A DNA stretch of 64,000 nt from Pandoraea oxalativorans. GTDB lineage: Bacteria > Pseudomonadota > Gammaproteobacteria > Burkholderiales > Burkholderiaceae. Position 1 is the stretch's first letter. Every line of letters begins with the position of its first letter. The position numbers were made by a program, and so were the translations under genes. The stretch lies in contig NZ_CP011253.3 in assembly GCF_000972785.3 (NCBI RefSeq), positions 1,860,001-1,924,000 on the forward strand. Direction: 5' to 3'. The notes below the pieces were generated by a model. It saw nothing but the letters and a program-made list of their open reading frames with translations, ran no database searches and was not told the origin of the DNA. Of this stretch, positions 14,799-18,601 are shown piece by piece.

Positions 14799-15719
14799 TC
14801 ACGCTGGCCGGGCTTCGTCGTTGACGGTCCCGGCCACTTCATGGCACAGGGCGACGAACGCTTGCACGAGTGGGCTGTTATCGTCGCGGCGCTTGCCGAG
14901 TAGCAGCGCCGAGTGCGCGTCCGGTTCGCTGAAGTCCATGAAGTGCGCGCCTTCAATCTGAATGCAACGCACGGCGGCTGGCAGTACCGCAACCCCCAAT
15001 CCACTTGCCGCGAGGGCGACGATGGTCGTCGACTCGCGCGCCTCCTGAACGACACGCGGTGTAAAACCCGCGCGCTCGCACATCCTTCGAATCTGTCCGT
15101 CGACCGCCGTCCCGACGCCGTTGGGATGCATGATGAACGCTTCGTTGGCCAGATCGGCAATCGACACGCTGGCGTGCTTGGCCAACGCATGTCCCTGATG
15201 CAGGACGACGACCAGCGCTTCGTCGATCAACGTCTCGAAACTGAGTCCCGCGACTGGCGGCGCGTTCTCCGCCTGACGGAGCAATCCGATGTCCAGCGTC
15301 CGTTCGATGAGGGCTTCCCGTTGGCGCTCCGACGGCGCCTCACTGAGCGTTAGCGTCACGCGCGGGTAACGCTGACGGTAAGTCGTCAGTACGCGTTTCA
15401 TCAGGTTCGTCATGGGCGCCGACGTCGTGAACGCAATACGCAACTCCCCGGCATCGAGCCCGGCGATTTGCTGCACTTCGAGTCGGGCCGCTTCGGCATC
15501 GGCAAGAATCTGGCGTGCACGCACGAGGAACGCGCGACCCGCGGGCGTCAGGAAGACACGTCGTTGCGAGCGCTCGAAGAGCGGCACGCCCAATTCATCC
15601 TCAAGCGCCCGAATCTGCATCGATAGCGGCGGCTGCCCGATGTTCAGGCGCTGCGCGGCCCGGCTGAAATGCAGTTCCTCGGCGACGGTGACGAAGTAGC
15701 GAAGGTGTCGCAGTTCCAT
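14799..15719 (-). CDS. LysR-type regulator, YnfL-like
   Basis: A 306-residue LysR-type regulator. The N-terminal winged HTH is typical (LRYFVTVAEELHFSRAAQRLNIGQPPLSMQIRALEDELG, residues about 5-43), followed by the linker helix and a two-lobed effector domain. It is divergent from the MFS gene at 15851, the layout of ynfL/ynfM in E. coli, so it most likely controls that gene. The 131-bp gap is very AT-rich for this genome (runs of TATATA at 15744-15775), as expected for a LysR operator/promoter. The IS element sits 164 bp away and leaves this gene intact, though its target may be inactive. Confidence 0.85.
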   Translation of the reverse strand: MELRHLRYFVTVAEELHFSRAAQRLNIGQPPLSMQIRALEDELGVPLFERSQRRVFLTPAGRAFLVRARQILADAEAARLEVQQIAGLDAGELRIAFTTSAPMTNLMKRVLTTYRQRYPRVTLTLSEAPSERQREALIERTLDIGLLRQAENAPPVAGLSFETLIDEALVVVLHQGHALAKHASVSIADLANEAFIMHPNGVGTAVDGQIRRMCERAGFTPRVVQEARESTTIVALAASGLGVAVLPAAVRCIQIEGAHFMDFSEPDAHSALLLGKRRDDNSPLVQAFVALCHEVAGTVNDEARPA

Positions 15720-15873
15720 ACCTCAAGCCTCGATTGATCTGTTTTATATATAAAAATAAGCCTTAAATATATATTGGACGCGAGGTAACGGCAAACCTAT
15801 CATTCGTCGTATACATTTCACCCTTGGTTCGCGTGAGGCGGGCCAGCGTCATGGCATCAACCAACTCCCTACC

Positions 15874-15882
15874 TTTGTCTTC
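15874..15882. repeat. Target-site duplication, left copy
   Basis: TTTGTCTTC directly abuts the left IS end and is repeated at 17314-17322. Nine bases fits the IS256 family (8-9 bp). Confidence 0.88.
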
Positions 15883-17313
15883 GAGTTAAAGTCAAATCTG
15901 GTGTACGGGGCGTGAGCAAGATTAGGCGGCCAGGGGCTGCTGAGCCGGTGTGCTGTCGGTCACCGGCTCTCCATCCTTGAACGTCATCCCGTCAAGCATC
16001 GTCGCGATCTTTTCGGGGGCGCGGATGCGCCGCCACGAGTCTTCGGCCGACTCGATCAGCTTGAATGCCAGGCCGAGGAACGTCGCGCGCGAGACGCAGT
16101 TACGCGTGCGCTTGGTGCGGTGACGCACCGTCGCGAAGGTCGATTCAATCGGATTCGTCGTGCGCAGATGCTGCCAGTGTTCGGCCGGGAAATCGTAAAA
16201 TGCCAGCAGCTCGTCGCGATCTTGCGTCAGCTTTTCGACCACCTTCGGATACTTTGCCGAGTGGGTATCAACGAAGTGATTGAAGGCAACCAGCGCTTCG
16301 GCACGCGTGGCGGCCATCCAAATGTCCTGCATCGCCTTTTTGGCGCGGGCCTGCTGCGATTTCGGCAGCGCGTTGAGCACGTTGCCCATCTTGTGGAACC
16401 AGCAGCGCTGATGCTTGGTCTGCGGGAACACTTCTTCCATCGCTGCCCAGAATCCCATCGCACCATCTCCGCAAGCCAGCAGCGGCCCTGACTGCAGACC
16501 GCGCTTTTTCAGATCGAGCAGCAGTTCGGCCCACGACGCCTTCGATTCCCGATACCCGTCACTGATCGCCACACGCTCTTTCGTTCCGTCCGGTTTGACA
16601 CCAATGATCACCAACAGGCACTGGCCGTCGGAATCGTCGCTGCGCACGCCGGTGTGAATGCCGTCAGCCCACCAGTACACCCAGCGCGCCAACGACAACT
16701 CACGCTGATTCCACTGAGCATGCTCATCGGCCCATTGCGCCTTCAGACGACTCACCACATTTGGCGACAGGCCGCTGACCTGGCCGCCCAGCATGATGCC
16801 CATGGCTTCGCTCATGTCGCCCGTCGAGATGCCTCGCAGGTACAGCCACGGTAGTGCGGCCGACACGCGTGCGGATTTGCGAACGTACGGCGGCACGACC
16901 GCCGAATTGAAGCGGATGCCCGAACCCGAGCGATCACGCACCTTCGGTACCCGAACCGGCACCGGACCGATGGCCGTGACGACTTCGCGCTCTGGTAGGT
17001 AGCCGTTGCGCACCACGGCACGCCGACCGTCGATCGACCTCACGTTGCTGTACTGTTCAAGCATGCTCGCCAGTTCCGCTTCGACTGCCTGCTCGATGAT
17101 CTGCCGCGCGCCTTGCTGGATCAGTTCATCGAGCGCGCTCTTCGTTTGTGCTTTTCTGCCGTTCGTTTCTTTCATAATCTTCTTCATGGTGGTCGGGGCC
17201 GGCTCGCGCCGGCTTTGCTCGGTGTGCCTTCGACAAGCAACATTCTCAGCTAAACCGCCACCGCCTTCTCATATTTCCCAAAGCACCCCGTACACCAGAT
17301 TCGACAATAGCTC
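15883..17313 (-). mobile_element. Complete IS256-family insertion sequence, 1431 bp
   Basis: The terminal inverted repeats are about 28 bp: the left end begins GAGTTAAAGTC, the right end (reverse complement) begins GAGCTATTGTC, and both continue with AATCTGGTGTACGGGG. They match at about 24 of 28 positions. One transposase gene fills the element on the - strand. A perfect 9-bp target duplication flanks it, which indicates a simple insertion with no later rearrangement. It interrupts codons 8-11 of the MFS gene. Confidence 0.92.
15922..17187 (-). CDS. IS256-family (Mutator-type) transposase
   Basis: A 421-residue DDE transposase. The N-terminal part has the family pattern GARQIIEQAVEAELASML and RNGYLPEREV with PVRVPKVRDR. 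The catalytic residues appear to be D175 (WWADGIHTG), D241 (ACGDGAMGF) and E348 (TNPIESTFA), with HQRCWFHKMGNVL between the last two, the usual C/H motif of the family. The gene appears full length and intact, so the element may be active. The ATG at 17187 is used; a second ATG at 17175 preceded by GAAGAAG is possible. Confidence 0.95.
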   Translation of the reverse strand: MKKIMKETNGRKAQTKSALDELIQQGARQIIEQAVEAELASMLEQYSNVRSIDGRRAVVRNGYLPEREVVTAIGPVPVRVPKVRDRSGSGIRFNSAVVPPYVRKSARVSAALPWLYLRGISTGDMSEAMGIMLGGQVSGLSPNVVSRLKAQWADEHAQWNQRELSLARWVYWWADGIHTGVRSDDSDGQCLLVIIGVKPDGTKERVAISDGYRESKASWAELLLDLKKRGLQSGPLLACGDGAMGFWAAMEEVFPQTKHQRCWFHKMGNVLNALPKSQQARAKKAMQDIWMAATRAEALVAFNHFVDTHSAKYPKVVEKLTQDRDELLAFYDFPAEHWQHLRTTNPIESTFATVRHRTKRTRNCVSRATFLGLAFKLIESAEDSWRRIRAPEKIATMLDGMTFKDGEPVTDSTPAQQPLAA

Positions 17314-17322
17314 TTTGTCTTC
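17314..17322. repeat. Target-site duplication, right copy
   Basis: Second copy of TTTGTCTTC, directly after the right IS end. It carries the MFS frame onward as TTG TCT TCC. Confidence 0.88.
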
Positions 17323-18601
17323 CGGCGGCGCGCCCGCCGGTAGTGCGTCTGCTCCCAAACTACCGGCGGGCGTTGCGCGCGGCACGCGCGAATACGCCGT
17401 CATCAGCCGAGCCCTGTTCTTCGGTGGTTTTTCGACGTTCGCGCAGCTTTACTGCATGCAGTCGCTGCTGCCGTTGCTCACCACCACGTTCGGCATTAGC
17501 CCGGCGCAGGCCAGCTGGTCCGTATCTGCAGCCACGATGATGATGGCGCTCGGTTTGCTCGTGACGTGTGTCGCGGCCGACCGCGTGAGCCGCAAGCGGA
17601 TGATGACGATTGCACTGCTCAGTTCTTCCGTCCTCACGCTGGCCAGCGCCTTCTCGACGAACTTCGAGACCATCGTGATTCTGGCGGCGCTCAAGGGGCT
17701 GGCCTTGTCCGGACTACCGGCAATCGCCATGGCGTATCTGAGCGAGGAAATCGATCAGCGCTCGCTCGGTATGTCGATGGGGCTCTATATCGGCGGCAAC
17801 ATCCTCGGCGGGATGGCGGGGCGGGTGATGGCGGCGTTTGTCGCCGACATGTTCTCGTGGCGCGTGTCGGTAGGGCTGATCGGCCTCGTGTGTCTTGCAA
17901 TGCGCCTTGAGTTTGCCCGCAGCCTGCCGCATTCGCGCCGCTTCACCCCGCGTCATATGACGGTACGTGAAGCGCTGGGGCATGCACGCCGACATCTGGG
18001 TGACCCGGCGTTGCTCGGCTTGTACCTGTTCGCCGGCCTGATGATGGGCAGCTTCGTCAGCGTCTACAACTATCTCGGGTTCTATCTGTCGGCGCCGCCG
18101 TTTCATCTGCCGCATGCAGCCATCGGTGCGATTTTCACGATGTACCTGATCGGCGTCGTGGGTTCGTTCATTGCAGGGCCGCTGTCGGATCGCGTGGGCC
18201 GCCCCCGTCTTTTGTGGGCGCTCGTTGCGCTGGCGATGGTGGGGCTTTTCACGATGCTCGCGTCGCAGGTGTCCGGGGTGGTGATCGGTCTGGCGATCTT
18301 CACGTTCGGCTTCTTCGGTGCGCACACCGTGGCGAGCAGTTGGGTCGGCCGACGTGCCACGGAAGGGCGAGCGATTGCTTCCGCACTGTATCTGTTCTTC
18401 TACTATCTGGGGTCCAGCCTGCTTGGCAGCTTCTCGGGCGTCATGCTCAAGTCGCACGGCTGGCACGGCGTGGTTGCGTTGTTGTCGGTGGCCGTGGTGC
18501 TGTCGCTGGGTGTGGCGATTGCCATGCGTCGTGCGTACGGCACCGGCAAGCCAGCCGCCCTCGTTTAGCCGATTTCACTTCACCGGCATTCCCATAAAAC
18601 A

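Follow-up and report, generated by a model that had tools for sequence, protein, structure and literature searches.

An IS256-family insertion element of 1431 bp (15883-17313) interrupts codon 11 of a YnfM-type MFS gene of Pandoraea oxalativorans, within the stretch of 64,000 nucleotides that was analysed here as a whole (the window). The event is real, recent and ordinary, and represents a fresh case of a known kind. We consider it quite probable that the element arrived in codon 11 by transposition, that the native promoter region was left whole and that production of the exporter is most likely strongly reduced or abolished. The features of the locus are as follows, with positions counted in the window.

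14799-15719, minus strand: LysR-type regulator, 306 aa, YnfL/HusR counterpart, uninterrupted
15766-15803, both strands: intergenic divergent sigma-70-like sites, TGGACG-17-TATCAT on the plus strand (15775-15803) and TTGCCG-17-TATATT on the minus strand (15794-15766)
15851-15882, plus strand: 5′ stub of the ynfM-like gene, from ATG 15851 through codons 1-8 and the first duplication copy; stop TAA 15887-15889 after 12 codons
15874-15882, no strand: left copy of the target duplication TTTGTCTTC, from the repeat match and empty sites
15883-17313, minus strand: IS256-family insertion element, 1431 bp, from its ends, copies and family profiles
15883-15910, no strand: IRR, the inverted repeat downstream of the transposase, with an outward -35-like TTGACT (minus strand 15895-15890) that faces lysR
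15922-17187, minus strand: transposase gene, 421 aa, uninterrupted, with presumed DDE residues D175, D241 and E348
17286-17313, no strand: IRL, the inverted repeat upstream of the transposase, at the exporter-facing end, with a -10-like TATTGT read inward
17314-17322, no strand: right copy of the target duplication TTTGTCTTC, with in-frame TTG 17315-17317 as codon 9
17323-18568, plus strand: rest of the ynfM-like MFS exporter gene (3′ part), with its membrane domain complete and a frame that extends back into the element as far as the stop at 17000-17002

That the insertion arose by transposition follows from the copies of the element, its ends, the target duplication and the empty sites in relatives. 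The direct repeat on both sides of the element is perfect over 9 bp; comparison of the two copies displays ten equal bases, the tenth by chance, since C17313, the last base of the element, equals C15873. The terminal inverted repeats are 28 nt long and complementary at 24 of 28 positions (86%). The original prediction had proposed an insertion in codons 8-11 with a perfect 9-bp duplication and 28-bp inverted repeats: the repeats and the empty sites agree with the former, and the latter were recovered at that length, as imperfect repeats. The span given there, 15851-17322, does contain the element but also takes in the 5′ stub and both duplications. A chance direct repeat was considered and rejected, because exact duplications lie flush with the element ends in 19 of the 26 full copies found in the host genome (17 of 9 bp and two of 8 bp, with none flush in seven), whereas 0 of 650 pairings of the left and right flanks of different copies shared 8 flush bases.

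In the 29 orthologous loci of the genus, where the two flanks were compared separately and not joined, the left flank, with the start of lysR, aligns in 26 and the right flank in all 29. The empty site is present in close genomes, as had been proposed for checking: it is flush with a single 9-bp copy in four intact relatives (L032-L035), in which the flank alignments share exactly 9 bases, and five more (L036, L044, L051, L052 and L055) give this 9-bp copy as well once their alignments are extended by no more than 2 bases. In 17 other loci the flank alignments stop further away, within the variable tail, and overlap by 9 bases in five, by 12-15 in eleven and by -11 in one; such odd overlaps are to be expected from small insertions and deletions in this tail. 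Only one flank was matched in the remaining three. The exporter gene is uninterrupted in 29/29 orthologues. Among the 31 other Pandoraea genomes, 29 carry it in one piece and one 500-contig assembly in two, and a reduced 1.2-Mb genome yielded no orthologue, with one match at E 1e-3. A protein of 425 residues starting with MASTNSLPLSSGG had been anticipated, and the uninterrupted relatives bear this out without any joining of flanks (in L033, 11 + 414 codons give 425 residues). Relatives with another start or frame, or without the gene, had been named as counting against the proposal: 26 of the 29 orthologues (L032-L057) have the predicted kind of start, MAST or MASP, but the three most distant begin with MASS (L058) or MSSL (L059-L060), and the 1.2-Mb genome has no orthologue.

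The assignment to the IS256 family was upheld by the family profiles, the transposase scoring 320.6 bits against NF033543 (cut-off 150) and 224.3 bits against PF00872 (cut-off 21). Residues D175, D241 and E348, which we take to be the catalytic acidic positions from the known motif, are kept in 65/66, 67/68 and 59/60 aligned relatives, respectively. Members of the family generate target duplications of 8-9 bp, and the duplication at this site, at 9 bp, lies within that range, just as the repeats of 28 nt and 86% complementarity agree with the imperfect repeats of about 25-40 bp typical of the family. The overall organization, with an IS256-type DDE transposase as the sole gene, imperfect terminal inverted repeats and short target duplications, is that described for ISCth4 and IS256. 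Inverted repeats of 31 bp are reported for ISCth4 (PMC7780238) and of 39/27 for ISPaes3, and the literature on both elements gives a target duplication of 8 bp; that of ISCth4 is A/T-rich (PMC7780238), unlike the duplications seen here, which are mostly of 9 bp. A further difference concerns the subterminal TGTAAA reported as a conserved IS256-family feature, which is replaced inside both repeats by TGTACG, a 4/6 match.

We searched the host genome (6,500,731 bases in 5 contigs) for copies, scoring 40 of 111 first-look candidates, and obtained at least 36 matches: 26 full-length copies, two copies ending at position 1415, two split copies (four pieces in all), three short pieces and one 86% piece. 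Full-length copies occur on all five contigs. Seven are identical over 1431 bp, namely the window copy and six others, one of which lies on a 75-kb contig. All but one of the 26 full copies seem to have an undamaged transposase frame; in the exception, the 1432-bp copy L026, the longest frame is shortened to 333 codons. Given the identical copies and the uninterrupted transposase, the element is probably still mobile, as the original prediction had supposed from the intact transposase.

Several of the copies show peculiarities of their own. Duplications are offset from the element end by 4, 1 and 13 bases in L003, L007 and L012, respectively, which could reflect donor bases brought along from a circle junction. 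A longest shared word of 9 bases within 40/40 bases was seen in 5 of 650 cross-copy pairings, and the offset duplications of L003 and L012 are therefore suggestive only; the offset 10-mer of L007 was equalled in none of the 650. The copies L016 (C1:1045194-1046624) and L015 (C1:1052255-1053685) are oppositely oriented, and GTATGCTCG occurs both in the left flank of one and in the right flank of the other; recombination between these two copies may have inverted the intervening segment. L027 and L028, on different contigs, both break off at position 1415, and beyond it they share a flank that is identical for 1421 bases, which implies that another repeated sequence joins at this position. Two copies are split by about 1.3 kb of other DNA (C1:428283-431065 and C1:3644577-3647359), with 8 and 10 element bases repeated on either side of the gap, as a second insertion element landing inside would leave them. 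Flanks of other copies adjoin open frames of various families, an MFS/sugar transporter at L017 (C1:40154-41584), ISL3 at L009, IS110 at L026 and a Mu-type transposase at L008; this check covered six flank pieces from 6 of 28 copies, and two of the pieces gave no family.

When the best 12 candidates per genome were considered, some match to the element was found in 9 of the 31 other Pandoraea genomes and a full copy was detected in none; the best matches were an 88% piece (query 422-1255) and a 75% match (query 9-1251). A remnant on a P. faecigallinarum plasmid (NZ_CP011808.2, 197745-198579) is 88% identical over 836 bp. A wider scan, using one genome per species and thus liable to omit records near the host genome, gave 75 loci, mostly in Burkholderiales. 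The best long DNA match there was in Burkholderia catarinensis (L117, 82% over 1415 bp); two closer pieces, at 89% over 297 bp in Paraburkholderia atlantica (L138) and at 88% over 462 bp in P. humisilvae (L130), are both cut by contig ends, so that only part of their length is visible. None of these four relatives represents the same element. Since six other copies among the 26 are identical and no full copy was found in the 31 other genomes of the genus, the element must be recent, in line with the recent event originally proposed, and most likely it entered from outside and multiplied recently.

By sequence and gene layout, the interrupted locus is the counterpart of E. coli ynfL (husR)-ynfM, with divergent LysR and MFS genes. 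The exporter is 40.5% identical to E. coli YnfM over 405 aa (E 6.8e-98), covering the whole membrane domain, and the LysR protein is 41.5% identical to YnfL over 289 aa, so that the YnfM-type exporter and the intact LysR partner described in the original prediction are both borne out. The 414-residue exporter piece scores 159.7 bits against PF07690, and the MFS_1 match begins at residue 31 of this piece, untouched by the insertion. The next best exporter match within the host genome is 28% identical. As to the exporter subfamily, none of the best 25 of 27 NCBIfam matches rose above its cut-off, and among solved structures the matches were weak only, to synaptic vesicle glycoprotein 2A (E about 4e-4 to 5e-4, 7 sequences). 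In E. coli, YnfL (HusR) is reported to bind between ynfL and ynfM and to activate ynfM (PMC12844172). YnfM is described as a glutarate exporter of E. coli strain BL21(DE3) (PMC12622518), and a Corynebacterium paper likewise names ynfM a glutarate exporter gene (PMC8112011). By analogy, the exporter would probably carry a small dicarboxylate, glutarate for instance. The Pandoraea locus differs from ynfL-ynfM in that its exporter gene holds an insertion, and its substrate is assigned by that analogy only.

What the insertion would do to expression can be set out from the sequence. An IS256-family element with 26 full copies in the genome transposed into codon 11, duplicating the 9-bp target, presumably by the copy-out/paste-in route of the family, with which its half-promoter anatomy fits. 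A consensus scan for sigma-70-type sites found promoter-like sites only in the native intergenic region, one per strand (2 against 0.4 expected), in a stretch that is largely conserved among 27 aligned sequences and untouched by the insertion, and from this control region the exporter frame is displaced by 1440 bp. With the native promoter intact, a transcript read from ATG 15851 would be translated for 12 codons, up to the stop at 15887-15889, and would then run untranslated and antisense to the transposase for about 1.4 kb before reaching the exporter frame, and the junction showed no promoter-like site and no stretch resembling a ribosome-binding site. The outcome would most likely be strongly reduced or abolished exporter production, and loss of exporter function is likely. 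The inactivation previously claimed is likely in this sense, but it needs qualification: the insertion removes only the first 8-10 residues, in the N-terminal tail, the membrane domain and an open frame are kept, and the TTG of codon 9 is re-supplied by the duplication. An open frame of 520 codons (17006-18568, plus strand) spans the junction, and automatic annotation may call it one gene. We rejected it as a gene of its own, as it is the exporter frame run on into antisense transposase sequence.

It could also be that the exporter is still made, either as a protein of 417 residues lacking the first 8, from TTG 17315, or as a fusion from an ATG inside the element, in which case its control would be changed and the gene not destroyed. 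The exporter frame extends without a break over 17003-18568 and offers several in-frame starts (TTG 17315 and ATG 17186, 17096 and 17063), so that a nearly complete transporter is conceivable; the MFS_1 domain is intact, and the tail beyond about residue 9 varies among orthologues. The missing first residues are conserved in 26 of the 29 orthologues, however, the junction has no promoter-like site in the sigma-70-type scan, and the openness of the frame is no evidence of its use, because inside the element two of the three outward frames run on without a stop, for 45 and 103 codons. Shine-Dalgarno matches before the in-frame starts in 17003-17560 do not exceed 4 bases, and TTG 17315 has no match at all; this result covers the starts around the junction alone and argues little. 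Weighing these points, we regard continued production as unlikely. Even less probable is that the insertion acts as a reversible control switch and not as a knock-out, with translation starting at the TTG of codon 9, the membrane domain whole, the native promoter upstream and precise excision restoring the gene. Reduced or abolished production remains our preferred reading.

An outward promoter of the element had also been suggested to act on the 3′ part of the exporter, and here the analysis points elsewhere. In ISCth4, the right end holds a -35 half and the left end a -10 half, which a circle junction of 5-6 bp would bring together as a promoter (PMC7780238), and the present element shares this arrangement: TTGACT lies in its right end, which is downstream of the transposase and faces lysR, TATTGT, read inward, lies in its left end on the exporter side, and a 6-bp circle junction would give TTGACT-17-TATTGT. 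Among the 42 relatives that passed the coverage filter, six were dropped, one end not having been found; the other 36 have both ends located and represent 16 distinct end pairs, with several copies per genome. An outward TTGAC is present in the right end of 36/36 and in the left end of 0/36; we relied on this count alone, that of the -10 half being partly imposed by the search pattern (TA required). A cruder end search gave TTGAC in 35/40, the repeat pair being apparently wrong in the five misses. Because of this one-sided distribution, the outward promoter of the element most likely points away from the exporter, toward lysR. Hybrid promoters formed by IS256-family elements have been reported (PMC9330008, PMC3281130, PMC7780238), and TCGACA at 17301-17306 is a 5/6 match to TTGACA, so that an outward -35 of the element might be combined with a chromosomal -10 to drive the 3′ part of the exporter. 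Yet the hexamers 16-18 bases downstream are CGGCGG, GGCGGC and GCGGCG, without a -10-like sequence in the flank, the sigma-70 consensus scan found no site pointing from the element into the exporter, and TTGAC lies in the other end; an outward promoter at the exporter-facing end was rejected on these grounds, and we regard such a hybrid as highly improbable. That the TTGACT at the opposite end raises lysR expression instead, being on the minus strand in the sense direction toward lysR, is just as hard to credit: the hexamers 16-18 bases on (GGTAGG, GTAGGG and TAGGGA, minus strand) are poor -10 sites, and there too the scan found none.

Taken as such, the locus offers good evidence of an element multiplying within one Pandoraea genome and breaking a gene that remains whole in the 29 relatives having it in one piece. 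It corrects the view of the element as a source of exporter transcription, its promoter half facing away from that gene. For annotation, the strain is a natural candidate ynfM-type mutant, and the long chimeric open frame should not be called a gene.
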